Shown: piece by piece, positions 1-64,000 of the stretch
How the letters are laid out: the number at the start of each line of letters is the position of its first letter
Position numbering within the stretch: position 1 is the first letter of the stretch
NCBI RefSeq assembly: GCF_900104775.1
Contig: NZ_FNSA01000001.1
Coordinates: forward strand, 186,001 to 250,000
From: Tsukamurella tyrosinosolvens
GTDB lineage: Bacteria; Actinomycetota; Actinomycetes; Mycobacteriales; Mycobacteriaceae
Direction: 5' to 3'
Length of the DNA stretch: 64,000 nucleotides
Translations under genes and position numbers: made by a program
Notes under the pieces: model-generated
Database searches by the model: none
What the model saw: only the letters and a program-made list of their open reading frames with translations
What the model was told of the DNA's origin: nothing

Positions 1-74
1 CCATCGTCGTGCTCGACATGCTGATGACGATCGGCATCTGGGGCGCCAGCAGCGAACTGGTCTTCCGGGGGTGA
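1..74 (+). CDS. YrbE/MlaE-family permease, C-terminal end only
   Basis: Only the last 23 codons are present, read from position 3 and ending in TGA; the gene starts outside the window. The fragment reads as a hydrophobic helix followed by a short polar end (…GASSELVFRG). Its place, 7 bases before the first MCE gene, is where the second YrbE permease subunit sits in actinobacterial mce operons, so it should be an integral membrane permease of the MCE importer. The family call rests on context more than on the fragment itself. Confidence 0.6.
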   Translation, partial: IVVLDMLMTIGIWGASSELVFRG

Positions 75-81
75 GGCGACG

Positions 82-1257
82 ATGACGACGCGCTGGCCCG
101 CGCCCGTGACGGGCATGATGACGCCCGGCCCGGTACTGCTGCGCCGCGGCCTCGCCACGATCCTGGTGGTGCTCCTCGCCGCGGCCGCGTTCTGGGCGGT
201 CCGCGCGATCGTCACCGTCCCGCCGAAGACCCTGACCCTCGTGGTGCGCAGCGTCGCGCCCGGTGTCGCGCCCGGCACCGCCGTCGAGATGGACGGCCTG
301 CGGATCGGCGAGGTCAGCGACATCGTCGACCGCGGCGCCGGCCGACTCGGCGTGGCGATGCGGCTCAACGGCGCCGCCGACGACCTCGTGACCGACGCCG
401 TGCGGGTCGCCTTCGCGCCCGGCAACACCTTCGGCATCACGGTGGTCTCGCTGACCCCCGGCCGGGGCGGCCGGACCCTCGCCGAGGGCTCCTCCTGGGA
501 ACCGATCTCGACGCCCGACGACGCGACGATGGCCTCCCTGCTCCGCTCGCTCAGCACCATGGAGCGGGAGAGCTTCCGGCCCCACATGGCGCAGCTCATC
601 GCCCAGATGGACACCACCACCCGCCAGTTCCTGCCCTTCCTCGGCGCCGTCGGCGCCATCGCGGAGGCCAACGCCGACACCCAGCGGATCCCCACCGGCG
701 AGACTCTGCCGACGATCGCGACCACACTCGGCGCCCTCGACACGTCGGTCAAGCGGATGCTCCCCGGGCTCCGCGCGCTGTGGTCCTGGACCGGCCCCGA
801 CACTCCGGGCTACCCCGAGCGGCAGAAGGGGACCATCGACGCGTTCGCCTACGACTTCTCGCCCGCGCTCGCCGCCCTGCTGAGCGCGCCCAACGTCGCG
901 GCGCTCACCGAGGTGCTGGTGCCGGTCCGCGAGCTCTCCACCCGGGCGGTCTCGAGCTTCCCCGACGCCGCCCGCAACGGCCGTCAGCTCGAGGAACTCA
1001 TCGAGCGGATCCGGCGATCCATGCCGGACAACGGATCCGGCCCCGTCCTCAACCTCGACGTCACGTTCCAGCAGTTCCCCGCGATCGCCTCCCTGCTGCC
1101 GCCGGTGCCGCAGTTCTCCGTGACTCCACCCGGCAAGCCCGCACCCGGCAAGCCCGGACCGGGGGCGGCCGCGACGTCCACCGCCCCGTCCGCGCCGAAG
1201 CCCACGGGCGCACCGTCGACCTCCACCGCCGCGCCGACCACGACGAGGGGCCGCTGA
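82..1257 (+). CDS. MCE family protein, first of six (MceA position)
   Basis: 391 residues. One membrane anchor (about residues 24–45) is followed by an MCE/MlaD domain (about 50–128, including GTAVEMDGLRIGEV), a long helical region, and a low-complexity Pro/Ser/Thr/Ala tail from about residue 346. MCE proteins of one operon assemble into a periplasm-spanning tube that carries lipids between the outer envelope and the YrbE permease. It is first of six consecutive MCE genes and starts 7 bases after the permease. The tail carries an Ala-Pro-Ser stretch encoded by the recurrent 9-mer GCACCGTCG (1210–1218). The substrate cannot be read from the sequence. Confidence 0.92.
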   Translation: MTTRWPAPVTGMMTPGPVLLRRGLATILVVLLAAAAFWAVRAIVTVPPKTLTLVVRSVAPGVAPGTAVEMDGLRIGEVSDIVDRGAGRLGVAMRLNGAADDLVTDAVRVAFAPGNTFGITVVSLTPGRGGRTLAEGSSWEPISTPDDATMASLLRSLSTMERESFRPHMAQLIAQMDTTTRQFLPFLGAVGAIAEANADTQRIPTGETLPTIATTLGALDTSVKRMLPGLRALWSWTGPDTPGYPERQKGTIDAFAYDFSPALAALLSAPNVAALTEVLVPVRELSTRAVSSFPDAARNGRQLEELIERIRRSMPDNGSGPVLNLDVTFQQFPAIASLLPPVPQFSVTPPGKPAPGKPGPGAAATSTAPSAPKPTGAPSTSTAAPTTTRGR

Positions 1258-1258
1258 C

Positions 1259-2278
1259 GTGCGCACAGCCCGCAATCCCGGAACCCTGCTGCTGATCTTC
1301 GTCGTCCTGATCGCGGTCGGCGCGGCCTTCACCGTGCGCGCGCTCACCCGCCCCGCCGAGGCCGCGCAAGCGTCGTACACCGCCGAGTTCACCAACGCCT
1401 CCGGGCTCCGCTCCGGCGACGATGTGCGGCTGCTCGGCGTCCAGGTGGGCAAGGTCCGCGACGTCACGCTCGACCAGGACGACACCGCGCGCGGCTCGCT
1501 CGCCCGGGTCGCGTTCACCGTCGACCGCGACCAGCGGCTCACCACCGCCACCACGCTGTCCATCCGGTTCCAGAACCTCACCGGCCTCCGCTATCTCGAG
1601 CTCTCCCCGAGCGACGCCCGGGCCGAGGCGATCGCCCCGGACTCCACGATCGGCACGACCCGGACGGTGCCGTCCTTCGACGTCACGACGATCTTCAACG
1701 GCCTGCAGCCCGTGCTCGCCTCGATGCAGCCCGATCAGATCAACCACCTCGCGCAGTCCATCGCGGCCGTCGTCGAGGGCGACGGTTCCGGGCTCGGTCC
1801 CCTGCTCGACGCCCTCCAGACGCTGAGCCGGTTCAGCAACGACCGCTCGGCACTGCTGCAGACACTGGTCCGCAACCTCAAGGCGATCAACGACAGCCTC
1901 GGCGGCAAGTCGGGGAGCCTGCCGACCGTGATCGGCTACCTCCAGGGCATCGGCGAGGTCATGCGCAACGCCGCGCCGTCGACGAAGGTCCTCTCCGACC
2001 AGGGCGCCGAGCTCATGACCGCGGCCGACGCCCTGCTCCGCGGCGCGGGCCTGCAGCCCGCCGGCAGCTCGCTGCTCGAACTCGCCCGACCCGAACTGCC
2101 CCGGCTGCAGAGCCTCGTCGACCTCGCCGCCCTCCTGCCCGGGCTGTTCGCGAACCTCACGCAGCAGCAGGTCCCCTCCGCGGGCGGCGACACCGGCTGC
2201 AGCCGCGGCGAGGCCCAACTGCCCGCCGGCGTCCTGGTCTTCCTCCGAGGATCGAAGGTGACGCTGTGCAAGCGCTGA
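1259..2278 (+). CDS. MCE family protein, second of six (MceB position)
   Basis: 339 residues from a GTG start one base after the previous stop. A transmembrane anchor lies at about residues 9–28 and the MCE domain at about 38–115 (GLRSGDDVRLLGVQVGKV). The remaining two-thirds is predicted helical, as in the needle-forming part of MCE subunits. Two cysteines near the end (…GGDTGCSR… and LCKR) could form a disulphide outside the membrane. Its end overlaps the next gene by 13 bases, consistent with coupled translation of the complex. Confidence 0.92.
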   Translation: MRTARNPGTLLLIFVVLIAVGAAFTVRALTRPAEAAQASYTAEFTNASGLRSGDDVRLLGVQVGKVRDVTLDQDDTARGSLARVAFTVDRDQRLTTATTLSIRFQNLTGLRYLELSPSDARAEAIAPDSTIGTTRTVPSFDVTTIFNGLQPVLASMQPDQINHLAQSIAAVVEGDGSGLGPLLDALQTLSRFSNDRSALLQTLVRNLKAINDSLGGKSGSLPTVIGYLQGIGEVMRNAAPSTKVLSDQGAELMTAADALLRGAGLQPAGSSLLELARPELPRLQSLVDLAALLPGLFANLTQQQVPSAGGDTGCSRGEAQLPAGVLVFLRGSKVTLCKR

Positions 2279-4439: not shown

Positions 4440-5476
4440 ACCGCCCCACCGTCCGCAGCCGGATCACCCGCGGCCTGCTCCTCCTCGTCGTCCTCGCGCT
4501 CGGCGTTCTCGGCGTGCTCCGCGCGAGCCCGTCGACCCTGCCGAGTCCCACCGGCTGGTCGTCGGGATGGCCTCTGCGCGTGGAATTCTCCAACGCCCTG
4601 AACCTGCCCGACCAGGCGCAGGTCCGGTTCAACGGCCGCTCCGTCGGCACCATGGATTCGGTGCGGCTCGACGGCGATCGGGCCGTCGCGACCCTGACCA
4701 TCTCGGAGCCCGCGAGCATCCCCGCCGACACCACCGCCGAGCTGCGCCAGGACACGCTCCTCGGCGACGTCTACATCGCGCTGGTCTCGGCGCCCACCTC
4801 GACCGCGCAACCGCTCCGCGCGGGCGGGCTGATCCCGCTCGCGCAGAGCCGCCCGCCGGATCACGTGGAGGACCTCATGACCAGCCTGTCGGGCTTCCTC
4901 GGCAGCGGCGGCGTCGCGCAACTCGGCAACACGGTCCAGCGGATCGACGGTGCCTTCCCCGATGATCCGACGCGCACCCGCACGATCACCGACAACCTGG
5001 CGTCCACCGTCATGGCGTGGGCCGACGACACCGCCTCACTCGACGCGGCGCTGCGCTCCGTCGTCGGGGTCACCGGCACCGTCGCGGCCGAGCACCGGAT
5101 GCTCAGCGACTACCTCTCCCCCGACGGGCTCCGCCGCTGGGGCGTCATCTCCGAGACCGCCCGGGTGACCGAGGTGTTCGCCTCGCTGGCACCGCTGATC
5201 AAGAACACCGCGCCGCTGACCCCGGGTGTCCGCGACCTCGCGGCGCTGTTCACGCAGGTGGTCAGCCCCCTGCTCCTCCTCGACCGACCGGTGGGCGCCG
5301 TCCGCCCTGACAATCTGATCAACCTGCGGAACCTGTTCCGGGACACGATCATCCCGTGGGTCGAGCACGGCCCGAAGGTGAACGTGGTCAAGGTCTCCGA
5401 CGGTCCCGCCGTGCCCACCGAGGAGAAGGCGGAGCAGGCGCTCCGCGCGATGCGCATGATCGGGGCGGTGCGATGA
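4436..5476 (+). CDS. MCE family protein, fifth of six (MceE position), without lipobox
   Basis: 346 residues; ATG overlaps the previous stop (ATGA). The membrane anchor is at about residues 12–28 and the MCE domain at about 45–125 (ALNLPDQAQVRFNGRSVGTM). In many mce operons the fifth protein is a lipoprotein, but here the hydrophobic segment is followed by Arg-Ala-Ser and no Cys. It should therefore be a membrane-anchored rather than a lipid-modified subunit. It overlaps the next gene by 4 bases. Confidence 0.9.
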   Translation: MNRPTVRSRITRGLLLLVVLALGVLGVLRASPSTLPSPTGWSSGWPLRVEFSNALNLPDQAQVRFNGRSVGTMDSVRLDGDRAVATLTISEPASIPADTTAELRQDTLLGDVYIALVSAPTSTAQPLRAGGLIPLAQSRPPDHVEDLMTSLSGFLGSGGVAQLGNTVQRIDGAFPDDPTRTRTITDNLASTVMAWADDTASLDAALRSVVGVTGTVAAEHRMLSDYLSPDGLRRWGVISETARVTEVFASLAPLIKNTAPLTPGVRDLAALFTQVVSPLLLLDRPVGAVRPDNLINLRNLFRDTIIPWVEHGPKVNVVKVSDGPAVPTEEKAEQALRAMRMIGAVR

Positions 5477-6432
5477 AGAAGGAACTGGTGGCGAACGCGA
5501 TCACGTTCACCGTGGTGCTCGTGGTCGGCCTGCTCATCCTCCTGGTCGGCTACATGGGGCTGCGTCCCGGCGTGACCTACACGACGCTCTCGCTCAAGTT
5601 GGCCCACACCGGTCAGCTGTCGATCGGGTCGCCGATCCTCCTGCGCGGCGTGCGGATCGGCGACGTCACCGCCGTCGAGCCCTCGACCGAGGGCGTCCGG
5701 GTCGCCCTGCGCTACCCGTCGGAGTACCGGATCCCGGTGGACTCGGCCCTCTCCGTCGAGCAGCTCAGCGCGCTCAGCGAGCCCTACGTCGAGTTCGCGC
5801 CCCGCTCCTCCGACGGCGCCGTCTTCGCCTCGGGCGCCGAGATCCCCGCGACGGCCGTCACCCAGTCCCGCTCCGTCAGCGACGTCTTCGAGGCGCTCGC
5901 AGCGCTCAACCGCACCGCGGACTCGGGTGCGCTCGGGGGAATCGTGAAGACGGCGTGGCAGGCGACCTCCGGCCGCGACGACGACCTGACCACCCTCAGC
6001 CGCGCCGGGCAGCTGCTCAGCTCCACCGTGCTCAGCCGGATGCCCGCGATCCGCAGCATGTTCGCCAACACCCAGGTCTACTCCGCGGACCTGGGGTGGA
6101 CCGCGAACGCCGTGCGCCGACTCGGCACCGAGTTCGAGAACACGGCCGACGTGGTGCTCAGCGCCGTGCAGGCCGTGCAACGCATGGTGATGACCCTCGA
6201 CGCGCCGGACCCGTTCGTGAACACCATCGACCCGTTCCTCAAGCGGCTCAAGCCCTACCTCGACGAGCTGCTCCCCGCGGTCGCCACCACCGGCGGCCCG
6301 TTCATCTCCATCTTCTCGGCGGTCAACCGCACGGTGCCGCAGATCGATCTCAGCACGCTGCTGTCGAACGCGCTGCAGGTCGCCGGGACCGACGGTGCCG
6401 CGCGCGTCACCCTGACCCTCCCCCGCCCCTGA
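5473..6432 (+). CDS. MCE family protein, sixth of six (MceF position)
   Basis: 319 residues from ATG at 5473. The membrane anchor is at about residues 10–29 and the MCE domain at about 36–115 (GQLSIGSPILLRGVRIGDV). The remaining helical region is shorter than in the other five. It closes the run of MCE subunits and is followed 17 bases later by an Mce-associated protein. The short C-terminus has no proline-rich tail. Confidence 0.92.
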   Translation: MKKELVANAITFTVVLVVGLLILLVGYMGLRPGVTYTTLSLKLAHTGQLSIGSPILLRGVRIGDVTAVEPSTEGVRVALRYPSEYRIPVDSALSVEQLSALSEPYVEFAPRSSDGAVFASGAEIPATAVTQSRSVSDVFEALAALNRTADSGALGGIVKTAWQATSGRDDDLTTLSRAGQLLSSTVLSRMPAIRSMFANTQVYSADLGWTANAVRRLGTEFENTADVVLSAVQAVQRMVMTLDAPDPFVNTIDPFLKRLKPYLDELLPAVATTGGPFISIFSAVNRTVPQIDLSTLLSNALQVAGTDGAARVTLTLPRP

Positions 6433-6449
6433 CCACCAGAGAGGAATCC

Positions 6450-7325
6450 ATGCCGCAGGAGCACGACGACCCCGACGAGGTCGCCGCCGACGCGTCGGCC
6501 CCCGACGACGAGAACTCCGCCGAGGACGACGCTGCCGATCAGGCGGCCGAAGACGCCGCTGACGAGGCCGCGCCGCCGGTCTCGACCGAGAAGCCGCGGA
6601 AGCCGGGGCCCGCCCGATCCGCCACGCCCCCTTCCGGATCCGCCGCCGCGCGGAAGAAGTCGCTCGGGAAGGCCCCCGACGAGGAGCCCGCCCGGCGGGC
6701 ACCGTCGGGCACACTGCGCACCGTCCTCGCGACGGTCGTCGTCGTCGCGCTCGTCGCCGTCTCCGTCCTGCTCTACCTGCAGACCCGCGCCCTCGACGCG
6801 GAGCGGCAGGAGGCGTCCGACCGGGCCCGCGCCGAGCAGATCGCCTCCGACTACGCCGTCAAGGCCGCGACCATCGACTACCGCGACCTCACGCCGTGGA
6901 TCAACGGGCTGAAGGCCGGAGCCACACCGGAACTGGCGAAGAAGTTCGACTCCATCCTCGACGTCATGCGCGAGATCGTGACCCCGCTGCGGATCACCGC
7001 CACGGGCAAGGCATCGTTCGCGAAGACCACCTCCGAGGTGAACGGCATCTACCAGGTGAAGGTGGCCGTCGACGTCTCGACGCAGAACATCCAGGCCCCG
7101 CAGGGCACTCTCAGCACCAGCACCTACTCGGTGAGCCTCGACCGCAACCGGGACTGGATCATCACCGAGGCCGGCGACCCGGCCAACCCGAACGCCGTGC
7201 TCAGCGGTCTCGGCGGCGGAACGGGGACGGCCCCGTCGGCGAACCCGTCCGCGCCGTCGAACCCGCAGCAGCCCGCCACCCCGACCATGCCCGCCCTGCC
7301 CGCACCGTCGGGCACCCCCAACTGA
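6450..7325 (+). CDS. Mce-associated membrane protein
   Basis: 291 residues, with GAGAGGAA before ATG as ribosome binding site. The first ~85 residues are acidic and Ala/Pro-rich and should be cytoplasmic. One transmembrane helix lies at about 89–110 (TVLATVVVVALVAVSVLLY). A folded extracytoplasmic domain of about 150 residues follows (the region of VSTQNIQAPQG and NRDWIITEAGD), then a Pro/Ser/Ala tail. This order matches the Mas proteins that follow mceF in mycobacteria and are thought to stabilise the importer. Two copies of the GCACCGTCG 9-mer lie in its disordered parts (6699–6707, 7302–7310). Confidence 0.82.
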   Translation: MPQEHDDPDEVAADASAPDDENSAEDDAADQAAEDAADEAAPPVSTEKPRKPGPARSATPPSGSAAARKKSLGKAPDEEPARRAPSGTLRTVLATVVVVALVAVSVLLYLQTRALDAERQEASDRARAEQIASDYAVKAATIDYRDLTPWINGLKAGATPELAKKFDSILDVMREIVTPLRITATGKASFAKTTSEVNGIYQVKVAVDVSTQNIQAPQGTLSTSTYSVSLDRNRDWIITEAGDPANPNAVLSGLGGGTGTAPSANPSAPSNPQQPATPTMPALPAPSGTPN

Positions 7326-7343
7326 CGCCCGGAGGACCCGACG

Positions 7344-7753: not shown

Positions 7754-7761
7754 GAGCCTCC

Positions 7762-8679: not shown

Positions 8680-8708
8680 ACGCGGACGCCCGCCGGCGCG
8701 GTGCCCGC

Positions 8709-9893
8709 TCAGCCTCCGAACAGCACCGCGCAGACCAGGGCGTAGACCTCGGCCTGGAACGCCGGGTCGGTGTCGAAGCGGCGGGTGCGGCCCACGTCGA
8801 AGACGACGGCGAACGCGGCATGGACGAGGAAGGTGGCCTCGGCGGCGCTGAGCTCGGGCCGGACCGCGACCACGGCGTCGGCGAACGCGGCGATGTTGGC
8901 GCGCTGGATCCCGGCGAGGCGGCTGCGGTCCGCGTCGGGCACGTTGCCGATCTCGCGGAAGTACACGGTCATCAGCTTCGACCGCAGGAACGACAACTGC
9001 ACGTAGGCCTGCGCGAGGGCCGCGAGTCGGGCCGTGGGATCCGGCACCGTCGTGGTGACCTCGGCGATCGCGTCGCCCACCCCCTTGCCGGCGTGGTCGA
9101 GAGCGCTGACCAGAATGCCTGCCTTGCTGGGGAAGTAGCGATACATGCCGGACGGGACGATCCCGGCCGCGCGCCCGATCTGGCCCATGCTCACGTTGTG
9201 GAAGCCGTGCTGGAAGATCTGCTCGATCGCCTCGACCAGCACCTGCTCCTGCCGGCCCGCGTCGGGATTGGGCTCCGGCGGCGGCCCGACGGTGAACGGC
9301 ACCGGCGGGGTGGGCAGCGCCAGCACCTGCCGCGCCGCGGCGCCGAGCACGGCCTCGGCGCGCTTCTGCGCGAGGACGGTCCGGTGCGCGGTGACGCTAC
9401 CGGTCACGCTGATCAGCGCCACGCTGCGCAGCTCGATCTCGGCCCGGTCGACGCCGGGGAGCGCCGGCGCCGCGGCGTCGGCGACCGTGCCGATCATCGC
9501 GGTCAGCTGCTCGCGGATCCGCGACCTGTCCTCGCCCTCGAGCAGGCGCTGCTCCCAGCGGAACAGGCCGCCCGTGTTCCGGCGCTCGAAGGAGATCCGC
9601 AGCGCGGCCTCGATGATCGCGTCGACCCGCGCCGCCGGCTCCTGCCCCGCCGTGGCCTCGGCCGCCTCGTCGACGGCGTTGCACAACGCGTCGGAGGCCG
9701 AGGTGATCGCGTGCTCGAGCAGCGCGTACTTGTTGGGGAAGTGCCGGTAGACCGCCGGCCCGCTGATGTCGAGCGACGCGGCGATCTCCTCGATCCCGAC
9801 GCCGTGATAGCCGCGCCGGGAGAAATCCTCAGCGGCGACCCGCGCGATCTGCTCGCGCCGGTCCTTGGGCCGCTTCCGCCGCGCCTGGGTCAC
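8709..9893 (-). CDS. Tandem-domain TetR-family regulator
   Basis: 394 residues, twice the usual TetR length, and it contains two complete TetR units. The first helix-turn-helix is at about residues 12–58 (GVGIEEIAASLDISGPAVYRHF). The second begins at about 205 (VSMGQIGRAAGIVPSGMYRYF). Each is followed by its own helical ligand domain. It is convergent with the mce operon and divergent from a second MpaB-type gene. An inverted repeat GTGAA-CA-TTCAC at 9975–9986 in the shared upstream region is a likely operator. It probably represses the oxygenase gene, and perhaps itself, until a lipid ligand is present. Confidence 0.9.
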   Translation of the reverse strand: MTQARRKRPKDRREQIARVAAEDFSRRGYHGVGIEEIAASLDISGPAVYRHFPNKYALLEHAITSASDALCNAVDEAAEATAGQEPAARVDAIIEAALRISFERRNTGGLFRWEQRLLEGEDRSRIREQLTAMIGTVADAAAPALPGVDRAEIELRSVALISVTGSVTAHRTVLAQKRAEAVLGAAARQVLALPTPPVPFTVGPPPEPNPDAGRQEQVLVEAIEQIFQHGFHNVSMGQIGRAAGIVPSGMYRYFPSKAGILVSALDHAGKGVGDAIAEVTTTVPDPTARLAALAQAYVQLSFLRSKLMTVYFREIGNVPDADRSRLAGIQRANIAAFADAVVAVRPELSAAEATFLVHAAFAVVFDVGRTRRFDTDPAFQAEVYALVCAVLFGG

Positions 9894-10983: not shown

Positions 10984-11062
10984 GAGCCGGGGTTCTCGTT
11001 CGGAGGGCCCCGGCTCGTGCGTCCGGGCCCTCGCCCGACGGGGCCGGGCGGCACCGTCGGGC
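10984..11062. terminator. Double hairpin between convergent genes
   Basis: Two stem-loops fill the gap between the oxygenase and the FadD gene that faces it: GAGCCGGGG/CCCCGGCTC (10984–10992 and 11008–11016) and GCCCGACGG/CCGTCGGGC (11033–11041 and 11054–11062). Neither has a clear T-run, as is usual for actinomycetes. The second stem contains one full copy of the recurrent 9-mer GCACCGTCG (11051–11059). Confidence 0.6.
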
Positions 11063-11074
11063 GGAGGGGGACCG

Positions 11075-12658
11075 TCAGCCGAACTGCTGGCGCAGGACGG
11101 GCTTGGTGACCTTGCCCGTGGGGTTGCGCGGCAGAGCGTCGATCACGACCACGTGGCGGGGGTGCTTGTAGCGGGCGATGTGGTCGTTGAGGAACTCCGA
11201 GAGCGATTCGACGGTGAGCTCGGCGCCGTCGCGCAGCTGAACGACGGCCACCACGGCCTCGCCGAAGCGCTCGTCGGGCTTGCCGATCACGGCGACCTCG
11301 GTGACGTCGGGGTGCGCCGCGACGGCGTTCTCCACCTCGACCGAGTAGATGTTCTCGCCGCCCGAGATGACCATGTCCTTGGCGCGGTCGACGACGTAGA
11401 CGAAGCCCTCCTCGTCCATGCGGACGAGGTCGCCCGAGTGGAACCAGCCGCCGTGGAACGCCTCCTTCGTGGCCTCGAGGTTGTTCCAGTAGCCGGACAT
11501 CATGTTGGGCCCGCGGTAGACGATCTCGCCCACCTCGCCGCGGGGCACGTCGTTGCCCTCGGAGTCGATGACCCGGGCCGCGACGGTGCGCACGACCTTG
11601 CCGACGGAGCCGAACTTGCGCAGCGCGTCGGCGCCCGAGAGCGCGCAGGTGACGGGCGACATCTCGGTCTGGCCGAAGACGGCGCAGATCTCGGCGTCGG
11701 GGAACGTGGCGGCGAGCTCGCGGAGCAGCGTCTCGCTGGCCGGCGCGGCGCCCCACCACACGAACTTGAGCTTGAGGTCGCGCGGCCGCTGCTTCTGCTC
11801 GTTCACCGCGAGCTGCCATTGCATCGGCACCATGAACATGCTGGTGATGCCCTCGCGCTCCAGCGCGTCCAGCGTCTGGCCCGGGTCGAAGGCGCCGAGC
11901 GGGAAGATCACCGAGGTCAGGCCCTGCAGGAAGGCGGTCGCGAGCACGCCGAAGCCGGCGATGTGGAACAGGGGGACGGCGACCGCGCCCACGGCGTCCG
12001 GGTCGACGGCGCCCGGCGCGACGAGGTTCGTCCAGCCCTGTGCGGTCATGTTGACGTGGGTGAGCACCGCGCCCTTGGGGCGGCCGGTCGTGCCCGAGGT
12101 GTACATGATCAGCGCCGGTGAGTCCTCCGGGACGTCGACGTGCGGGTCGGGACGCCCCTCGGCGACGAGGTCCTCGAAGCCCAGCGCGCCGGCGGCCTCG
12201 TCGGCACCGTCGAACCGGATGCGCAGGCCGAAGTCGGCGCCCGCGCCCGCGACGCCCGCGATCAGCGGGTCGAAGGGCGCCTCGTAGACGACGGCGCTGC
12301 ACATCGTGTCCTGGACCAGGAAGGCCACCTCGGGCGGCGCCATCCGGAAGTTGACCGGGACGGCGATCGCGCCGAGCGCGGTGACGCCGAGGGCCGCCTC
12401 GACGTACTCGATCCGGTTCAGGCCCAGGATCAGCACCCGATCGCCGGCGGTGATGCCGCGCTCGCGCAGCGCGCCGGCGAAGGCCCCGACCCGCTCGGCG
12501 AGGCCCGCCCAGGTGACCTCCTTGTCGAGGTAGCGCAGCGCCGCCTGATCGCCGCGCATGACGGCGTGGTTGCGGACGCTGTTGTTCCAGGTGTTGCGCT
12601 GCGAGCTGCGCGGTTCCTCCGTGCGCGGGAACCAGGCGATGTTCTCAAGAGACGTCAT
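11075..12658 (-). CDS. Fatty-acid-type acyl-CoA synthetase (FadD family)
   Basis: 527 residues. It is an ANL-superfamily AMP-forming ligase: the nucleotide loop YTSGTTGRPKGA is at about residues 182–193, the core motif YRGPNMMSGYWNN follows, then HSGDLVRMDEEG, and the C-terminal catalytic lysine lies in RNPTGKVTK. It activates a carboxylic acid, probably a fatty acid or sterol-derived acid, to its CoA thioester. It is divergent from fadA/fadB. The promoter region carries overlapping palindromes that resemble a KstR-type site (12675–12688). Chain-length preference cannot be read. Confidence 0.88.
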   Translation of the reverse strand: MTSLENIAWFPRTEEPRSSQRNTWNNSVRNHAVMRGDQAALRYLDKEVTWAGLAERVGAFAGALRERGITAGDRVLILGLNRIEYVEAALGVTALGAIAVPVNFRMAPPEVAFLVQDTMCSAVVYEAPFDPLIAGVAGAGADFGLRIRFDGADEAAGALGFEDLVAEGRPDPHVDVPEDSPALIMYTSGTTGRPKGAVLTHVNMTAQGWTNLVAPGAVDPDAVGAVAVPLFHIAGFGVLATAFLQGLTSVIFPLGAFDPGQTLDALEREGITSMFMVPMQWQLAVNEQKQRPRDLKLKFVWWGAAPASETLLRELAATFPDAEICAVFGQTEMSPVTCALSGADALRKFGSVGKVVRTVAARVIDSEGNDVPRGEVGEIVYRGPNMMSGYWNNLEATKEAFHGGWFHSGDLVRMDEEGFVYVVDRAKDMVISGGENIYSVEVENAVAAHPDVTEVAVIGKPDERFGEAVVAVVQLRDGAELTVESLSEFLNDHIARYKHPRHVVVIDALPRNPTGKVTKPVLRQQFG

Positions 12659-16209: not shown

Positions 16210-16248
16210 AAGGGCCCGGCACCGTCTATTCGACGGTGCCGGGCCCTT
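16210..16248 (+). terminator. Intrinsic terminator after fadB
   Basis: Perfect 17-base stem (16210–16226 with 16232–16248) and 5-base loop TATTC, followed by TTTCGTC. Each arm contains GGCACCGTC/GACGGTGCC. The right arm is a full copy of the recurrent 9-mer and the left arm lacks only the last base, so the terminator is built as an inverted pair of that word. Confidence 0.85.
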
Positions 16249-16973: not shown

Positions 16974-21233
<4,260 letters not shown>

Positions 21234-21281
21234 CGGCACCGTCGACCTGCCCCCACGACCGGGGCCGATAGGGTGGTGCGC

Positions 21282-48580: not shown

Positions 48581-48602
48581 TCCCCCGTTCCTCCGGTCCG
48601 AC

Positions 48603-48636
48603 GGTGCCGGGCTCGCCTGCGGGCGGGCCCGGCACC
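48603..48636 (+). terminator. Terminator after phoX
   Basis: GGTGCCGGGCTCGCC (48603–48617) pairs with GGCGGGCCCGGCACC (48622–48636), with one T·G pair and loop TGCG. The left arm overlaps a copy of the recurrent 9-mer (complement CGACGGTGC at 48599–48607). Confidence 0.75.
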
Positions 48637-53803: not shown

Positions 53804-55444
53804 GTGATCGATTCCAGCACTGCGGCTGAATATCTCGCCGCGCTCGCCTCCTTCGAACAGGCCGCGGATCGCTTGACCTCGATGAACCCCGTCATGCTGT
53901 CCTCGCAGGAGGTCCTCGGCAGCCTCCGGCGCCTCGAGCGCGCCGCTCGCACGGTCCCCAGCAGCCAGCACTGGCTCACCGAGGTGGCCATCGAGCAGGA
54001 CCTGCCGGCCCAGCTCGGCTACACGGGCGCGAAGGAACTCCTGGTCGATCAGTTGTGCCTGGCGGGCGCCGAGGCCCGGGACCGGATCCGCGGTGCCCGG
54101 TCGCGCGCGCCGCGGCAGGAACGCGGGTACTCCCCCGAGCCGCGCCTGCCGCTCGTCGCCGACGCCCAGCGCGCGGGCACGCTGTCCGACCGGCACGCCC
54201 TGGCGATCGAGAAGGCCTTCGACACCTGCTCCCCCAAGCTGTCCCATCCCGACCTGCACGATCTGGAGGACATGCTGGTCACCGCTGCCGTCGGCGGGTG
54301 CACCCCGGAGGACGTCGTACTCCTCGGCCGGCGCGCGTACGAGCTCCTCGATCCCGACGGTGCCGAGCCCTCCGCGGAGGACATCGCCCGCAAGCGCGAG
54401 TTGACCGTCGGCAAACAGGGTGACGACCTCCTGTCCGCGCTCGGCGGAGTGCTGTCGCCGGAGGCCCGCGCGCTGCTGGACACGGTGCTGGAGAAGCTCG
54501 CCCGGCCCGGTGTGAACAACCCGGAGGACGCTGAGCACCCTGTCGACATCGACGACACCGAGGCCGTCGCCGAAGCGGCGAAGCGGGACCGTCGGAGCGC
54601 CGTCCAGCGCAACCACGACGCGTTCGTCGCGGCACTCCGGATCGTGATCGGTTCGGGTGCGCTCGGGCAGCACCGCGGGATGCCGTGCGTCCCGATCATC
54701 ACCCTGGGGATCGATCAGCTCGAGTCCGAGACCGGCATCGCCACCACCGCCACCGGCGGCCGGCTGCCCGTCGAGGACGCGCTCCGGATGATGGGCGCCA
54801 ACCCCAAATATGTTCTGCTGCTCGACCTCGCGTCCCGTCCGCTGTACTTGGGCCGGGAGAAGCGCCTCGCGTCCGCGGATCAGCGGATCGCGCTGTACGG
54901 ATCGGAGAAGGGCTGCAGTGCTCCGCGCTGCGACGCACCGGCCACGCGCTGCCAGGTCCATCACGTCACCGAGTGGCGGGACGGCGGGCGGACCGACATC
55001 AGCGTGCTCACGCTCGCGTGCGACGCCCACCACGGCAAGGCCGTGCCCAGCGGCGACGAGGTACGCCGCGGCTTCGAGACGATCACCCTGCCCGAGGGCG
55101 ACGAGTACGCCGGCCGTACCGGGTGGCGCCGCACCGGAGATCCCGCCGGTGAGTACCACCCGAATCACACGCACCACGCGCAGGAGCTCTACCGGCTGGC
55201 GCAGGAGCACCACCGGCAACGGCACCAGCAGTACGCCGACGCGTGGCGCGCGCAGGACGAACGCGCCCTCTACCGGGACTTCGTGGGCACCATCCACGAC
55301 GACATCGCCGCGATGCTGGACGGGCCGCACGGCCCGCCGCTGCTGGAGGACCTGCTCTCCGAACACGACGCCGACAACCATTGGCGCGAGGATCCGCCGT
55401 GGCCCGCGCACCAGACGCTGGATCGGCTGCACGCCATAGCGTGA
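53804..55444 (+). CDS. DUF222/HNH endonuclease-domain protein (13E12-type)
   Basis: 546 residues from GTG 53804 behind AAGGGGG. The N-terminal two-thirds is a DUF222 region, with LDTVLEKLARPGVNNPED and RRSAVQRNHDAFVAALR. The C-terminal HNH nuclease is seen as CSAPRCDAPATRCQVHHVTEW near residue 370 and LTLACDAHHGKAV, with paired cysteines. These proteins occur in many copies in Mycobacteriales genomes and the M. tuberculosis 13E12 repeat genes belong here. Role unknown; they are often linked to mobile DNA, but no transposase or att site is visible. Confidence 0.9.
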   Translation: MIDSSTAAEYLAALASFEQAADRLTSMNPVMLSSQEVLGSLRRLERAARTVPSSQHWLTEVAIEQDLPAQLGYTGAKELLVDQLCLAGAEARDRIRGARSRAPRQERGYSPEPRLPLVADAQRAGTLSDRHALAIEKAFDTCSPKLSHPDLHDLEDMLVTAAVGGCTPEDVVLLGRRAYELLDPDGAEPSAEDIARKRELTVGKQGDDLLSALGGVLSPEARALLDTVLEKLARPGVNNPEDAEHPVDIDDTEAVAEAAKRDRRSAVQRNHDAFVAALRIVIGSGALGQHRGMPCVPIITLGIDQLESETGIATTATGGRLPVEDALRMMGANPKYVLLLDLASRPLYLGREKRLASADQRIALYGSEKGCSAPRCDAPATRCQVHHVTEWRDGGRTDISVLTLACDAHHGKAVPSGDEVRRGFETITLPEGDEYAGRTGWRRTGDPAGEYHPNHTHHAQELYRLAQEHHRQRHQQYADAWRAQDERALYRDFVGTIHDDIAAMLDGPHGPPLLEDLLSEHDADNHWREDPPWPAHQTLDRLHAIA

Positions 55445-55514: not shown

Positions 55515-56156
55515 CTATCGAATCAGCGCGCCGAGGTTGCGTGCGAGGCGATCCCGGCCCGGCCCGGACAGCTCGTCCAGCACGACGGTGCGGCCGCCCA
55601 TGGCGAGCAGCAGCGCCTCAGCCGTGCCGTGGACATCGGGCCCGCGGCCGAAGGACCAGTCCAGGTCGTCGGCGACGAGGCGCACTCCCCTGCCCCGCAC
55701 GGCACCGCGGACCGGCGGCGCCCACACGGCGAAGTTGAGTGCCGGACGGAGGCGATCAGCAGGGATCGCCCTCGGCAGGCTCAGTGGTCTACGGATGTCC
55801 TGCTGATGGATCATGCCGTCCAACAGCGAGATACGGCAGCCGAAGCCGGACGTCAGGCCCGTGGGCCGCAGGTGGGCCCGGAGCGCGTCCACGATCGCGT
55901 CCGTCGACAGGTCCGAGAGTTCCTCCAGCCGCGCGGCATTCGCGGCGCCGCCCGGGTTGGCGCGACCGGTCGCCATGCGTTGCACCAACTCCCGCCCCGT
56001 CAGCAGGTCGTACCCGATGTGGTGCAACACCACGTCGCGCACGCTCCACCCCGCGCACAGGGTCGGCGCGCGCCACTGCTCCTCGGTGAAGCCCTCCACC
56101 AGTTCCAGCAGGCTGCGCCGCTCCTCGGTCGCCAGGTCGGCCACGGATCCGATCAC
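55515..56156 (-). CDS. Maleylpyruvate isomerase/DinB-type protein, mycothiol-dependent class
   Basis: 213 residues. The family pattern is TEEQWRAPTLCAGWSVRDVVLHHI at residues 24–48, with metal-ligand His47/His48. A later His is in LLDGMIHQQDIRRPL (near 118). The C-terminal domain has LVADDLDWSFGRGP. Members act as mycothiol-dependent isomerases or transferases, or are of unknown function. It lies 34 bases after leuS on the same strand and may be read from the same transcript. Confidence 0.85.
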   Translation of the reverse strand: MIGSVADLATEERRSLLELVEGFTEEQWRAPTLCAGWSVRDVVLHHIGYDLLTGRELVQRMATGRANPGGAANAARLEELSDLSTDAIVDALRAHLRPTGLTSGFGCRISLLDGMIHQQDIRRPLSLPRAIPADRLRPALNFAVWAPPVRGAVRGRGVRLVADDLDWSFGRGPDVHGTAEALLLAMGGRTVVLDELSGPGRDRLARNLGALIR

Positions 56157-56190: not shown

Positions 56191-59040
<2,850 letters not shown>

Positions 59041-59122: not shown

Positions 59123-59593
59123 GTGTTCGTGCTGGTTGTGATCCTCGCCCTGGCCGCCGTGGCGGCCGTCGTCGTGGGCGGCGCCGGGCTCGCCGGCCGC
59201 CTCCCCGAGAACGGTGTCGTGGGGGTCCGCACCGAACAGACCCTCTCCGATCCGCTGCTCTGGCGCACCGCGAACCGCGTCGCGGGTCCCGGCCTGGTGG
59301 CCGCGGGTGTCATCTTCGGCGGCGGCGCCCTCATCGGCCTCGCGATGGACGCGCCGTGGTCCTACGTCGCGGTCGTCGTCGCCGTGGTCGCGGGCCTGTT
59401 CCTCGCCGGTTTCGGCGCGCTGCAGGGCGCTCGCGCGGCGTCGATCCAGGCGCGCCTGCAGATGCCCGAGGCGACGTGCTGCAGCGCCGACGAGGCACCG
59501 TCGGACGACCCGGCGGCGGACTGCGGCGTGACCGGCGGCTGTGGCGCGTGTGCCCTCAAGGGCATGTGCGACCACGAAGCGCGCCCCGCCTAG
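59123..59593 (+). CDS. SdpI-family membrane protein with Cys-rich tail
   Basis: 156 residues from GTG 59123. The SdpI signature LPENGVVGVRTEQTLSDPLLWRTAN is at residues 27–51 (two parts), between the first and second of three membrane helices. The tail of ~45 residues is unusual: CCSAD, then DCGVTGGCGACALKGMCDH, giving seven cysteines and a His that could bind a metal or an Fe–S cluster. SdpI proteins confer immunity to membrane-active toxins in Bacillus. It is followed 3 bases later by a BASS transporter gene. Confidence 0.85.
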   Translation: MFVLVVILALAAVAAVVVGGAGLAGRLPENGVVGVRTEQTLSDPLLWRTANRVAGPGLVAAGVIFGGGALIGLAMDAPWSYVAVVVAVVAGLFLAGFGALQGARAASIQARLQMPEATCCSADEAPSDDPAADCGVTGGCGACALKGMCDHEARPA

Positions 59594-59596: not shown

Positions 59597-60586
59597 ATGC
59601 GGACCCTCCTCAGCAAGCTCTCGATCGACGGGTTCATCCTCGCGATCTTCGCCGCCGTCGGCGTCGCCGCCCTGTTCCCGGCGGAGGGCCGCGCGGTGCC
59701 CGTGGTCGACGGTGCCGTCACCGTCGCCATCGCGATCCTCTTCTTCCTGTACGGGGCGCGGATCCACCCCATGGAGGCCCTGGCCGGCCTCAAGCACTGG
59801 CGCCTGCACGTGGTGATCCTGGGCTTCACCTTCGTCGTCTTCCCGATCATCGGCGTCCTGCTGCGGTTCGCGCCCGAGGTGCTGCTGCGGCCCGAGCTGT
59901 ACGCGGGCGTCCTGTTCCTGACGCTGCTGCCGTCCACCGTGCAGTCGTCGATCGCCTTCACCTCGATCGCGGGCGGCAACGTGCCGGGCGCGATCGTCAG
60001 CGCCTCGGTCTCCAACCTGCTCGGGGTCTTCATCACGCCGCTGCTGGTCCTCGCGCTCATGGCGACCACCGGCGAGGTGCAGTTCCACAGCAGCTCGATC
60101 ATCGATCTGTGCCTGCAGCTCCTGCTGCCCTTCCTCCTCGGCCAGCTGTTGCGGCCCTGGGTGGGGGAGTTCGTGGCGAAGCACGCGGCGGCACTGAAGT
60201 ACGTGGACCGCGGCTCGATCGTGCTCGTGGTCTACGCCGCCTTCTCCGCCGGGATGCGCGAGCACATCTGGAGCCAGGTCTCCTGGGTGGGCGTGGTGCA
60301 GCTCATCGTGCTGTCCGTCGTGCTCGTGGTGGTGATGCTGTGGCTCACGCGGACCACCGCGGAGAAGCTCGGCTTCGACCGGGCCGACATGATCGCCGTC
60401 CAGTTCTGCGGCACCAAGAAGTCCATGGCCACCGGCCTGCCGATGGCGGCCGTCCTGTTCGCCGGGCAACCCGTCGGCCTGCTGGTGCTGCCGCTGATGA
60501 TCTTCCACCAGATCCAGCTCATGATGTGCGCGTGGCTGGCCGCGAAGTACGGGCGCGAGCTGGAGCCCGAGCCCGCCCCGGCCTGA
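59597..60586 (+). CDS. Bile acid:sodium symporter (BASS)-family transporter
   Basis: 329 residues from ATG 59597, 3 bases after the SdpI-type stop, so the two are cotranscribed. Ten membrane helices are expected. Family features are LLPSTVQSSIAFTSIAGGNVPGAIVSASVSNLLG (helix 4–5 crossing, two parts) and FCGTKKSMATGLPMAAVLF near residue 273, both sodium-site regions of SBF-like proteins. It may import an organic anion; the substrate is unknown. Its stop is 6 bases from the convergent lipoprotein gene. Confidence 0.92.
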   Translation: MRTLLSKLSIDGFILAIFAAVGVAALFPAEGRAVPVVDGAVTVAIAILFFLYGARIHPMEALAGLKHWRLHVVILGFTFVVFPIIGVLLRFAPEVLLRPELYAGVLFLTLLPSTVQSSIAFTSIAGGNVPGAIVSASVSNLLGVFITPLLVLALMATTGEVQFHSSSIIDLCLQLLLPFLLGQLLRPWVGEFVAKHAAALKYVDRGSIVLVVYAAFSAGMREHIWSQVSWVGVVQLIVLSVVLVVVMLWLTRTTAEKLGFDRADMIAVQFCGTKKSMATGLPMAAVLFAGQPVGLLVLPLMIFHQIQLMMCAWLAAKYGRELEPEPAPA

Positions 60587-60592: not shown

Positions 60593-61567
60593 TCACTCCA
60601 CGAGCGGCTGCTCCGCGACCTTCGCCAGGGTCGGCTCCATCGTCTGCAGGAACCAGGCGCGGCTCAGCGAGGTGGGTTGGTACACCGAGTAGGTGAGGTC
60701 CAGGTCCGCGACCACTGCGGTGCCCCGTTGCACCTGCGGCAGCGCGGAGTAGCCGGGCAGCTGCAGCAGGTCCTCGCCCGTCGCGCCGTTGGGGTAGATC
60801 GCCATGAAGTTCGCGCCCACGCGGGGGAGGAGCTCCAGCGAGACCATGCCGCGGGTCGCGGGGCTGACGAATCGCGGCTCGTCGCGGATCGCCTTCGGCA
60901 CCGTCAGCCCCAGCTCCGCGAGGAACAGGTTCGTCGGATCCTGCGGGCTCGCGATCACGTTGAAGCTGGACGCCGCGGCCGCGTACTGCGCCACGAACCC
61001 CGTCTTGCCCTTCAGCCCCGGGTACCGCTGCGCGAAGCCCGTCACCCGGTCGTGATCGGCCGCGATCACCCGCTTCGCCTCGGCCTCCTTGCCGAGGATC
61101 CTCCCGAGGGCCAGGAGCTGCGCGTTCCAGCCGGAATCGGGTCCCGTGGCGGCGATCCCGCCGAGCACCTTGGTCACGCCGCTCACCGCGGCGAAGTTCT
61201 CTCCCTTGACCACCCGGTGGTCGCCGACGAACAGGTCCGGCTGGTACGTGGCGATCTCCTCGGCCGGCAGGCTCGTGGCACCGGGGGCCTTGATCACGGG
61301 CACGTCCTTGAGGAGCTCGCGCTGCCACGCGGCGGGCAGCGGCTGCGTCAGCTGCACGATCGCGACGGGCTTGATCCCCAGTGCGAGCACGTTGTCGATC
61401 GCGTACCCCTGTGCCACGATCCGCTTCGCGCCCACGGGGTAGTCGATGGTGCCGTTGGCCTGTGCGATCGACACGGTCGAGGCCGACGGTGCCGCCGGGT
61501 CCGTCGTGCCCGATCCGCAGCCCGCGAGCAGAGCGAGGGCCGCGACGGCCGCCGCGAGGCGGCGCAT
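60593..61567 (-). CDS. Iron-siderophore ABC transporter binding lipoprotein, second copy
   Basis: 324 residues. Lipobox LLAGCGS with Cys near residue 19 follows a short signal (MRRLAAAVAALAL). The FecB/FepB-type periplasmic binding fold is clear: GTIDYPVGAKRIVAQGYAID, QPDLFVGDHRVVKGENF, a helical backbone, and LPGYSALPQVQRGTAVVADLD. The ATG shares a base with the previous stop (TGATG); a GTG one codon earlier is possible. It is a tandem duplicate of the gene upstream. No ABC permease or ATPase gene is in the window. Confidence 0.9.
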   Translation of the reverse strand: MRRLAAAVAALALLAGCGSGTTDPAAPSASTVSIAQANGTIDYPVGAKRIVAQGYAIDNVLALGIKPVAIVQLTQPLPAAWQRELLKDVPVIKAPGATSLPAEEIATYQPDLFVGDHRVVKGENFAAVSGVTKVLGGIAATGPDSGWNAQLLALGRILGKEAEAKRVIAADHDRVTGFAQRYPGLKGKTGFVAQYAAAASSFNVIASPQDPTNLFLAELGLTVPKAIRDEPRFVSPATRGMVSLELLPRVGANFMAIYPNGATGEDLLQLPGYSALPQVQRGTAVVADLDLTYSVYQPTSLSRAWFLQTMEPTLAKVAEQPLVE

Positions 61568-62568
61568 CACGCCACCGCCTGCTGCTGCGCGGCGTTCACG
61601 AAGAGCGGCTCGAGCTGGGGCAGGATCCACTCCCGGCTCAGCGGGGTGGGCTGGTTCAGCGCGATGACGGTCTGCAAGTCGACCACCTTCGTGGCACCCG
61701 ACGTCACCTGCGGCAGGCCCGCGTAGCCGGGCAGGCGCTGCAGGTCCGCCGCGGTGGCGCCGTTCGGGTAGATGACCATGAGGTTCGAGGCGATCTGGGG
61801 GAGCAGCTCCAGGGACACAGGCGTCCGTCCGCCCTGTTGGCCGGACCCGGTGGCGAACCGCGGGTTGTCCTTGATCGCCATGGGGAGGGTCATCCCCAGC
61901 TCGGCGAACATCGTGTTGGTCGGGTCGGCGGCGGAGGACACGAAGTTGAACGAGCTCGCCGCGGCGAGGTACTGCGCCAGGACGGCCGACTTGCCCCGCA
62001 GCCCCGGGTGTCGCTCGCGGACCGCCGCGAACCGCGCCTCGTCCTCCGCCAGGACCCGGCTCACCGCGTCCTCCTTGTCCAGGATCCGGCCGAGGGCCTT
62101 GAGCTGCACGTCCCACGCCGCGCTGGAGCCGTTCTCCTCGATACCGCCCAGGACCTTGGTGACCGCGGACAGCCGCTCGAAGGTGGGCCGATCGACCACG
62201 TAGTTGTCGCCGGCGAAGAGCTCGGGGCGGTACTTCGCGATCTCCTCGACCGGCATCGACTTCTTGTCCGGGGAGGTGATGATCGGGATGCCGTCGAGCT
62301 GTTTGCCGTGCCACGGCGCGGGCAGCGGAAGCCCGCCCTCGACGACGGCGACGGGCTTGATGCCCAGCGCCAGCAGGTTGTCGATCGAGTAGCCGGTGGC
62401 GACGATGCGGGTCGGGCCGACGGGGAACTCGGTGACACCGTTGACCTGCGTGATCGTCACGGTGCTCGCCGCGGGGGCGGCACCGTCGGATCCTGCGCCG
62501 CCGCATGCCGACGTGACCAGTCCGACCGCCGACAGAGCGGCGACGAACGCCGTGGTGAACCGCCTCAT
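61567..62568 (-). CDS. Iron-siderophore ABC transporter binding lipoprotein, first copy
   Basis: 333 residues with AGGAGG before ATG. Lipobox LVTSACGG, Cys near residue 22. The fold follows FecB/FepB: GVTEFPVGPTRIVATGYSID, YRPELFAGDNYVVDRPTF, and LPGYAGLPQVTSGATKVVDLQ. It is similar to the second copy along its length. A DtxR/IdeR-like iron box lies 20–38 bases upstream, so the two genes are expected to be expressed in low iron. Two binding proteins suggest two xenosiderophores feeding a transporter elsewhere. Confidence 0.92.
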   Translation of the reverse strand: MRRFTTAFVAALSAVGLVTSACGGAGSDGAAPAASTVTITQVNGVTEFPVGPTRIVATGYSIDNLLALGIKPVAVVEGGLPLPAPWHGKQLDGIPIITSPDKKSMPVEEIAKYRPELFAGDNYVVDRPTFERLSAVTKVLGGIEENGSSAAWDVQLKALGRILDKEDAVSRVLAEDEARFAAVRERHPGLRGKSAVLAQYLAAASSFNFVSSAADPTNTMFAELGMTLPMAIKDNPRFATGSGQQGGRTPVSLELLPQIASNLMVIYPNGATAADLQRLPGYAGLPQVTSGATKVVDLQTVIALNQPTPLSREWILPQLEPLFVNAAQQQAVA

Positions 62569-63446: not shown

Positions 63447-63468
63447 TTAGTCAGTGTTGCCTGACTAA
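63447..63468. promoter_or_regulatory. Inverted repeat TTAGTCAG…CTGACTAA
   Basis: Perfect 8-base arms 63447–63454 and 63461–63468 with a 6-base spacer, 14 bases upstream of the leftward membrane-protein start and just beyond its ribosome binding site. A repressor bound here would block transcription of the leftward gene. Confidence 0.6.
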
Positions 63469-63473
63469 TGTAC

Positions 63474-63489
63474 GACAACACCTGTTGTC
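63474..63489. promoter_or_regulatory. Inverted repeat GACAACA-CC-TGTTGTC
   Basis: Perfect 7-base arms with a 2-base centre, the size and A/C/G/T pattern of a MarR-family operator. It lies about 50 bases before the MarR start and 41 bases before the leftward gene start, so it could control both. Confidence 0.6.
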
Positions 63490-63539
63490 ACACACGTCGG
63501 AGTGACGAGTTCAACAATCGTCCGGTTACCCTGACCATC

Positions 63540-64000
63540 ATGGCCAGGGGACAGTCCACCGCGACCGATTCGCTCGCGATCGTCGATCCGGGGCCCGACG
63601 CGCGTATCCACCTCCTCGCGCGCCGGGTGGGCGTGCTCGTCGCGGACCTGCTCCTCGACGAGGTCCACCAGTACGACCCCCGGCTGCGCACCGGACACAT
63701 GCGGGTGCTCGCGCTCATCGAATCGTCACCCGTGCGGATCGTCGATGTCGCGGCCCAGCTCGGAACGACCAAGCAGACGGTGGCGCCCACCGTCGACGAG
63801 CTCGTCTCCTGGGGTTTCGTCGCCCGCGCGGTCGACGAGAACGACCGGCGGGCGCGCATCCTCACCCTGACGCCCGCGGGGGAGGAGCTCACCGAGGCGA
63901 TGCTCGGCCGGTCCATCGCACTGGACGAGGAGTGGGGACGCCTGCTGGGCGCCGATGTCGAGGTGTGCCGCTCGGCGCTGTGGCGGATCATCGAGTCGCA
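63540..64000 (+). CDS. MarR-family transcriptional regulator (cut by the window end)
   Basis: 153 codons from ATG 63540 are present with no stop. The winged helix is at about residues 55–115 (VRIVDVAAQLGTTKQTVAPTVDELVSWGFVARAVDENDRRARILTLTPAG, read in parts), and dimerisation helices are visible on both sides. The usual length is about 150–160, so only a few residues are missing. It is divergent from two small membrane-protein genes. Confidence 0.88.
   Translation, partial: MARGQSTATDSLAIVDPGPDARIHLLARRVGVLVADLLLDEVHQYDPRLRTGHMRVLALIESSPVRIVDVAAQLGTTKQTVAPTVDELVSWGFVARAVDENDRRARILTLTPAGEELTEAMLGRSIALDEEWGRLLGADVEVCRSALWRIIES

Follow-up and report, generated by a model that had tools for sequence, protein, structure and literature searches.

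The 64,000-nucleotide stretch of Tsukamurella tyrosinosolvens DNA considered here (the window; positions 186,001 to 250,000 of contig NZ_FNSA01000001.1, or G000:C1:186001-250000 in our numbering, in which G, C and L numbers denote genomes, contigs and sampled stretches) carries a highly iterated 9-bp word, GCACCGTCG, on both strands (Table 1). Exact matching gives 47 copies, 25 on the forward and 22 on the reverse strand, which makes it the most frequent 9-mer in the window when the strands are pooled. The expectation is 3.9 ± 2.1 copies in 100 dinucleotide-preserving shuffles (largest value, 10), 7.1 under a third-order Markov model, and 21.8 under a fifth-order one. A preliminary description of the window had estimated about 46 copies (about 25 and 21 by strand), close to the exact count, and its 12 example coordinates are all correct. 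It had also reported an inverted pair of the word at 16218-16240. A perfect 17-bp hairpin does lie there (arms 16210-16226 and 16232-16248, with no mismatch), but the exact 9-mer is present in the right arm only, the left arm containing GCACCGTCT, that is, eight of its nine letters. A consensus scan of positions 16000-16400 reported no T-tailed terminator.

The whole G000 genome (5,281,118 bases, four contigs) holds 3,277 copies of the word, compared with 83 (42/41 by strand) of the same letters read backwards. The 3,277 copies are divided 1,644/1,633 between the strands, a balance that the preliminary description had noted for the window. The 16 Tsukamurella members contain 827 to 4,002 copies per genome; the density is 0.42-0.82/kb in 14 species, while two divergent members are sparse, namely G006 (0.17/kb, from an assembly of 890 contigs that is 93% complete) and G007 (0.27/kb). 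The comparison with other genomes recommended in the preliminary description sets the genus apart, the density being at most 0.18/kb in all 161 distinct genomes outside Tsukamurella (per-kb densities are based on rounded genome sizes). These comprise 45 outgroup genomes (21 from further genera within the family, 24 from other families) and 117 genomes drawn class-wide, one being shared; among these 117, no second genus bearing GCACCGTCG was found.

Codon usage was taken into account using the window and 21 further stretches of the same genome (484 kb, 440 genes from a home-made gene caller), in which synonymous codons were permuted within genes in 200 replicates. The coding DNA of this sample holds 282 copies, for an expectation of 44.6 ± 5.5 and a maximum of 58 in the shuffles, which is a 6.3-fold excess. 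It extends over four of the six reading frames: Ala-Pro-Ser (61 vs. 1.1 expected), xGC-Thr-Val (86 vs. 27.2), antisense Thr-Val (36 vs. 5.9), and antisense Asp-Gly-Ala (97 vs. 9.6), the remaining two being His-Arg-Arg (2 vs. 0.7) and Arg-Arg-Cys (0 vs. 0.06). The Ala-Pro-Ser frame requires the rare codon GCA, which makes up 3.7% of those for Ala, and Asp-Gly-Ala requires GGT, at 8.1% of those for Gly. The preliminary description had taken Ala-Pro-Ser as the dominant frame, which does not hold, since this frame accounts for only 11 of the 38 coding copies in the window and 61 of the 282 in the sample; its further statement that several frames are used was borne out, and the excess survives both of the checks it had proposed, against Markov models (window count) and codon usage (484-kb coding count). 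Copies sense and antisense to genes are similar in number (149 and 133), which points to DNA rather than RNA as the unit. In gaps of at most 300 bp between called genes, 18 copies are found in 22.5 kb, compared with 1.5 expected from a third-order Markov model; the resulting 0.80/kb is a little above the 0.70/kb of coding DNA. The intergenic set was limited to these short gaps because the gene caller misses genes (e.g., comEC in L071). Codon usage, then, does not account for the abundance of the word.

Smaller samples of other Tsukamurella members, subjected to the same codon shuffle, gave 19 copies vs. 1.9 expected in T. pseudospumae (G001), 9 vs. 1.1 in G004, 7 vs. 0.8 in G008, and 5 vs. 1.2 in G009. 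The low-count G007 was considered as a possible bearer of a dialect of its own, but proved to hold the same word (47 vs. 14.8), and the low-count G006 has 2 copies vs. 1.1 expected in 23 kb. The first ten G006 contigs (L027-L036) are 49% G+C, far off what is usual in the genus; contamination or mobile DNA may be the reason. A search for dialect words in 60-100 kb samples of nine other genera of the family gave nothing above z 7.3; comparable Tsukamurella samples reach z 16.8 (G001) and 8.2 (G004), the latter by a narrow margin that leaves room for a weaker word in another genus. One candidate dialect word, in G034, was gone once more sequence was sampled, and apparent words in L061 and L048 were due to a tandem array (36-bp period) and to copies of longer repeats. 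The array (L061:13218-13550, in G031, of another genus of the family) has ten copies at 36-bp spacing.

When words of 7 to 12 letters are ranked by their excess over the codon shuffle, GCACCGTCG comes top (z 35.4), followed by its own overlaps, and the best unrelated word displayed in the ranking is GCGCAGC (z 12.3). Forms with one mismatch, considered where at least 10 copies are expected, occur at 0.23-2.9 times expectation; they are most in excess at letters 1, 2, 4, and 9 (up to 2.4, 2.4, 2.2, and 2.9, respectively) and lowest at letters 8 (0.23) and 5 (0.69). The excess of the exact word holds with all four bases as left neighbour and all four as right neighbour. The flanking positions deviating most are -1 (G or C) and +9 (A or G), and weaker deviations farther out are read as codon periodicity. 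A longer word was considered and discarded, as the flanks contribute little and no clear motif is seen past the immediate neighbours. The word is non-palindromic.

Its recent evolution was followed in alignments of 14 species, covering window positions 1-20000 and the comEC region, with predictions taken from matched substitutions elsewhere. Of 10,001 ordered comparisons starting from blocks one letter off the word, 651 showed a change into it, vs. 121.4 predicted (5.4-fold), and word blocks lost one letter in 651 comparisons, vs. 1,262.5 predicted (0.52-fold); these comparisons are unpolarised and share ancestry, the same events standing on both sides, and carry no P value. For nine control words of the same composition, the corresponding ratios are 0.58-2.27 for gain and 1.02-1.65 for loss, and three words sharing 7-8 consecutive letters with GCACCGTCG are intermediate (gain 2.58-4.80, loss 0.65-0.77). 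The backwards word has zero copies, hence no score. Simple conservation is less clear-cut than this gain and loss test. For G000 words in the comEC region, 102 of 186 comparisons show retention, vs. 36% for coding 9-mers of equal G+C; twelve of the 13 species exceed the control, some of them by little, and G012 falls below it (3/17 vs. 24%). Over all ordered pairs, the word is kept in 1,020 of 1,876 cases (54%), vs. 42% for a set of 40 common words matched in G+C; four of these are retained better, including one of its own overlaps. These results support an accumulation of the word through point mutation, under a sequence-specific pressure acting at the DNA level. That a genus-specific, maintained iterated word exists is near certain, and a genus-specific pressure on it at the DNA level is well supported.

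Along the chromosome, no strand or replichore bias was seen, either genome-wide or in the sampled stretches of contig C3, whose first and second halves are split 68/76 and 64/54 by strand (excluding L016, near the middle (2/5), and the empty L017; replichores were set by dnaA at C1:281947 and an assumed contig order). The lack of skew agrees with the preliminary description, which had suggested this check of orientation. Besides dnaA itself, seven equal-scoring DnaA-family matches occur in G000 (C1:36883, C1:176934, C3:1703032, 2640932, 2735429, 2865287, and 3141904), as would presumably be expected of an IS21-type helper ATPase; L003, L018, and G004 share a helper-like protein of this kind without a difference over 219 residues. 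Two contigs of about 13 kb each, L004 (G000:C2) and L006 (G000:C4), show the same genes twice in opposite directions and look, by eye, like fold-back assembly artefacts.

Two features of the window deserve mention for themselves. The two-gene block at 12761-16254, judged by eye to be for fatty-acid oxidation, recurs at G000:C3:300535-304041 with 81-83% identity; such a second copy is present in at least 14 of the 16 Tsukamurella members, and word-bearing inverted pairs occur near the 3' end of both block copies in several relatives. At 26685-26730, a same-strand triplet of the word in 15-bp steps falls in an uncalled stretch and is possibly an in-frame peptide repeat.

Table 1. Copies of the word and the associated inverted repeat in the window (intergenic status according to gene calls).
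Feature	Position	Strand	Basis
GCACCGTCG copy	1210..1218	+	exact match
GCACCGTCG copy	4945..4953	-	exact match
GCACCGTCG copy	5076..5084	+	exact match
GCACCGTCG copy	6390..6398	-	exact match
GCACCGTCG copy	6699..6707	+	exact match
GCACCGTCG copy	7302..7310	+	exact match
GCACCGTCG copy	9044..9052	+	exact match
GCACCGTCG copy, intergenic	11051..11059	+	exact match
GCACCGTCG copy	11581..11589	-	exact match
GCACCGTCG copy	12204..12212	+	exact match
GCACCGTCG copy	13551..13559	-	exact match
GCACCGTCG copy	13877..13885	-	exact match
GCACCGTCG copy	14588..14596	+	exact match
GCACCGTCG copy	16067..16075	+	exact match
Perfect 17-bp inverted repeat, 5-nt loop; left arm with 8/9 word letters	16210..16248	.	
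GCACCGTCG copy, hairpin right arm, intergenic	16231..16239	-	exact match
GCACCGTCG copy	17182..17190	+	exact match
GCACCGTCG copy	17708..17716	-	exact match
GCACCGTCG copy	18103..18111	-	exact match
GCACCGTCG copy	18806..18814	+	exact match
GCACCGTCG copy, intergenic	21236..21244	+	exact match
GCACCGTCG copy, intergenic	21946..21954	+	exact match
GCACCGTCG copy	22626..22634	+	exact match
GCACCGTCG copy, intergenic	26633..26641	+	exact match
GCACCGTCG copy, first of 15-bp-spaced triplet, intergenic	26692..26700	-	exact match
GCACCGTCG copy, second of triplet, intergenic	26707..26715	-	exact match
GCACCGTCG copy, third of triplet, intergenic	26722..26730	-	exact match
GCACCGTCG copy	30067..30075	-	exact match
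GCACCGTCG copy	32990..32998	-	exact match
GCACCGTCG copy	37901..37909	-	exact match
GCACCGTCG copy	38814..38822	-	exact match
GCACCGTCG copy	39306..39314	+	exact match
GCACCGTCG copy	41333..41341	-	exact match
GCACCGTCG copy	42425..42433	+	exact match
GCACCGTCG copy	42515..42523	+	exact match
GCACCGTCG copy	46154..46162	+	exact match
GCACCGTCG copy	46787..46795	+	exact match
GCACCGTCG copy, intergenic	48599..48607	-	exact match
GCACCGTCG copy	48691..48699	+	exact match
GCACCGTCG copy	50725..50733	-	exact match
GCACCGTCG copy	54355..54363	-	exact match
GCACCGTCG copy	55583..55591	-	exact match
GCACCGTCG copy	57461..57469	+	exact match
GCACCGTCG copy	58883..58891	+	exact match
GCACCGTCG copy	59495..59503	+	exact match
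GCACCGTCG copy	59707..59715	-	exact match
GCACCGTCG copy	61484..61492	-	exact match
GCACCGTCG copy	62480..62488	+	exact match

Mobile DNA is poor in the word. The 20-kb stretch L017 (C3:2.60 Mb), which resembles an island in its gene openings and includes a C5 methyltransferase match, contains 0 copies; L002 and L003 (C1, 40 kb), by eye a metal-resistance island, contain 4; and ten pieces (44.5 kb) from the ends of the elements inserted in tadA, described below, contain 7.

The genes that could take up DNA are widespread. ComEC was found in 37 of 37 genomes searched, including all 16 Tsukamurella members, and in G000 comEA (HHH and SLBB domains) and comEC lie side by side. A single ATPase of the T2SSE family (Tad-type) is present in 14 of the 16 members; G006 has no match, and G007 has one match with an internal stop plus one under the cut-off (15/16 if counted). 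TadB is likewise present in 14 of 16, with no match in G006 and G007; one TGA occurs within each of four TadB matches and is, in G000, the stop codon of the gene itself. The two TadB-less members have the lowest word density, but since these two also diverge most (77% and 74% identity over the comEC region), the association of TadB absence with low density amounts to one contrast only. The tad locus of T. pseudospumae looks complete.

In five of the 16 Tsukamurella species (G000, G004, G008, G010, and G013), tadA is split at one place: relative to the G001 gene, the left part ends at nt 1002 and the right part resumes at 999-1009, with inserts of about 43, 15, 30, 39, and 35 kb, respectively, as computed from coordinates. 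In nine other members, tadA and tadB are adjacent by coordinates, and the G007 tadA match likewise ends at residue 337, perhaps also split by an element. The G000 element (about C3:4704546-4747359; L168, L160) bears at its far end two tyrosine recombinase genes, a DUF6262 gene, and an M78 peptidase gene, an arrangement that we take to resemble the Tn554 type, and the same recombinase opening is found in the elements of the other four species. In several species, elements are known to insert into competence genes, which has been read as a means of escaping removal by transformation (PMC4774983). The tadA hot spot lends circumstantial support to a role of tad in DNA uptake; alternatively, the split site may only be a convenient attachment site. 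We know of no uptake sequence in Micrococcus luteus, a naturally transformable species that shares these kinds of genes (ComEA, ComEC, and Tad/Flp) with Tsukamurella. Competence based on ComEA, ComEC, and Flp in that species provides a precedent (PMC6370729).

The best single mechanism for the pressure on GCACCGTCG, although our confidence in it falls a little short of even, is that the word is an uptake sequence for natural transformation. The pressure would then arise from a preference for conspecific DNA in uptake and recombination: word-bearing fragments would be favoured by a surface receptor, either carried on a Tad/Flp pilus or connected with ComEA, a single strand would be imported via ComEC, and recombination would swap homologous alleles, so that word-bearing alleles would spread and the word would build up wherever the peptide or the intergenic DNA tolerates change. 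Several strains, including G000, may now be non-transformable through interruption of tadA by an integrative element. The fuller picture, of a genus-wide self-DNA tag in a Gram-positive actinobacterium, read by a Tad/Flp- or ComEA-linked receptor and opposed by the tadA-inserting elements, is put forward more tentatively still.

The likeness to the uptake signal sequences (USS) of Haemophilus (AAGTGCGGT) and the DNA uptake sequences (DUS) of Neisseria (GCCGTCTGAA) is broad. It includes a non-palindromic word of 9-10 bp in thousands of copies, lack of orientation bias, excess in several reading frames, clade specificity, scarcity in mobile DNA (with one phage as an exception), build-up by point mutation, and an excess of some one-mismatch forms, at certain positions only. 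Gradual accumulation via mismatched forms has been described for uptake sequences (PMC1939737). The Tsukamurella word differs in its unrelated sequence and its high-GC actinobacterial host, and shows no extended flanking motif. The uptake-like character claimed in the preliminary description thus stands as regards iteration, strand balance, reading frames, and genus restriction, but not as regards Ala-Pro-Ser dominance or the proposed enrichment in terminators.

Several observations weigh against uptake. Uptake sequences typically show fairly regular spacing and close inverted pairs (PMC1626085), and those of Pasteurellaceae are biased to gene ends (PMC2346458). Here, gaps between sites are random (coefficient of variation 1.02 vs. 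1.01 ± 0.06, excluding the empty L017), position within genes is flat, with equal gene halves in either orientation, and convergent gaps, with 3 copies in 2.8 kb, show no clear enrichment. Nor are inverted pairs clearly in excess: summed over the 16 genomes, GCACCGTC and GACGGTGC follow each other 3-12 bases apart in 251 places and in the opposite order in 230, and the two orders differ by species either way (e.g., 34 vs. 21 in G001). Regular spacing and pairing are typical of uptake sequences but do not define the class, which preferential uptake does. Relatives without the word also have ComEC and T2SSE ATPases, so that the machinery does not explain genus specificity, and the tadA of G000 itself is interrupted. 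In one 20-kb stretch of G012, the count lies inside the shuffle range (4 vs. 2.4), and pooled stretches of other genera show a two-fold excess over the codon shuffle (24 vs. 11.8). Searches of the open-access literature gave no report of uptake, competence, or a receptor in Tsukamurella, nor any paper on natural transformation or a DNA uptake sequence in the genus. The strongest pointer away from uptake comes from the Tsukamurella phage TPA2 (L103, 50 kb), with 17 coding copies vs. 3.9 in the codon shuffle (14 vs. 3.5 with the annotated genes of the record), an excess that uptake bias does not predict. It is only suggestive, because the word ranks third among TPA2's own words and unrelated words in other phages score higher (z up to 11.2). 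No comparable excess is found in the phages TIN2 (3 vs. 1.4) and TIN3 (2 vs. 1.0) or in the related Gordonia phages Mariokart (6 vs. 2.8) and AnarQue (2 vs. 2.3); the phages GTE6 and SPI1 have 4 vs. 2.8 and 1 vs. 1.3.

The TPA2 excess would fit better with a protective Chi-like site, and hence with recognition of GCACCGTCG by a chromosomal protein specific to the genus that binds or recombines DNA (an end-processing nuclease with a Chi-like site, a nucleoid protein, or another), the word being kept by direct selection on the cell, not by uptake. The defined 9-bp core, the genus restriction, and the scarcity in mobile DNA are also in its favour. Chi and the FtsK-orienting polar sequences (KOPS) are likewise short, over-represented, asymmetric words; they are read by chromosomal machines and are usually skewed to one strand per replichore. 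The Tsukamurella word has no such skew, its spacing is random with mild heterogeneity (counts per 20 kb have a variance/mean of 1.41), no candidate protein was identified, and TIN2 and TIN3 lack the excess, which leaves this explanation rather unlikely. Less probable again is a methylation- or mismatch-repair-linked process that makes and keeps the word with no uptake, as may be imagined from HIP1 and the alternate highly iterated palindromes (HIPs) of cyanobacteria. These are also clade-wide iterated words of debated function, and biased repair would yield an excess of gains as well. Nevertheless, HIPs are palindromic and were linked by Elhai to resident orphan methyltransferases (PMC4390886), whereas GCACCGTCG is asymmetric. 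Moreover, no methyltransferase common to all dense Tsukamurella species was found in the two families searched: the C5 family (PF00145) has no match in two of the 14 dense species (G011 and G015) and varied locations elsewhere, and the N6/N4 family (PF01555) has matches in only three.

Two simpler explanations were given very low weight. That the word is a by-product of codon choice, peptide composition, or high-GC actinobacterial context is suggested by the weaker excess seen in the pooled other genera and in G020 (7 vs. 1.8, and 11 vs. 4.9 in a further test), and by the sense Thr-Val frame, which is frequent even after shuffling. This can cover about one-sixth of the coding copies but is refuted as a full explanation by the excess remaining after shuffling, in four frames, in rare codons, and in intergenic DNA, and by genera of similar G+C without the word; it is highly improbable. 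Retention of the word as a terminator stem, suggested by the perfect hairpin at 16210-16248 and by inverted pairs at the matching gene-pair end in several relatives, is hardly credible, given the near-equal pair orders and the mere 18 pair places for 3,277 words in G000, and is refuted as a general explanation.

To our knowledge, no natural transformation is established in a group close to the mycobacteria, and known uptake sequences come from two Gram-negative families only. The same two, Pasteurellaceae and Neisseriaceae, are those named in PMC1939737. Matching open-access papers present no actinobacterial uptake sequence in their titles or abstract openings; for GCACCGTCG or its overlaps, the matches listed bear titles on unrelated subjects, and broader open-access searches gave nothing on the word among the matches listed. 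If the uptake mechanism is right, Tsukamurella would provide a third, independent case of an uptake sequence, in an actinobacterium, and self-DNA tagging would be seen to evolve repeatedly; it would also predict natural transformation near the mycobacteria and a receptor-word pair to be found. Even if uptake is wrong, a 9-mer present in thousands of copies under ongoing pressure implies a sequence-specific process operating across the whole chromosome.

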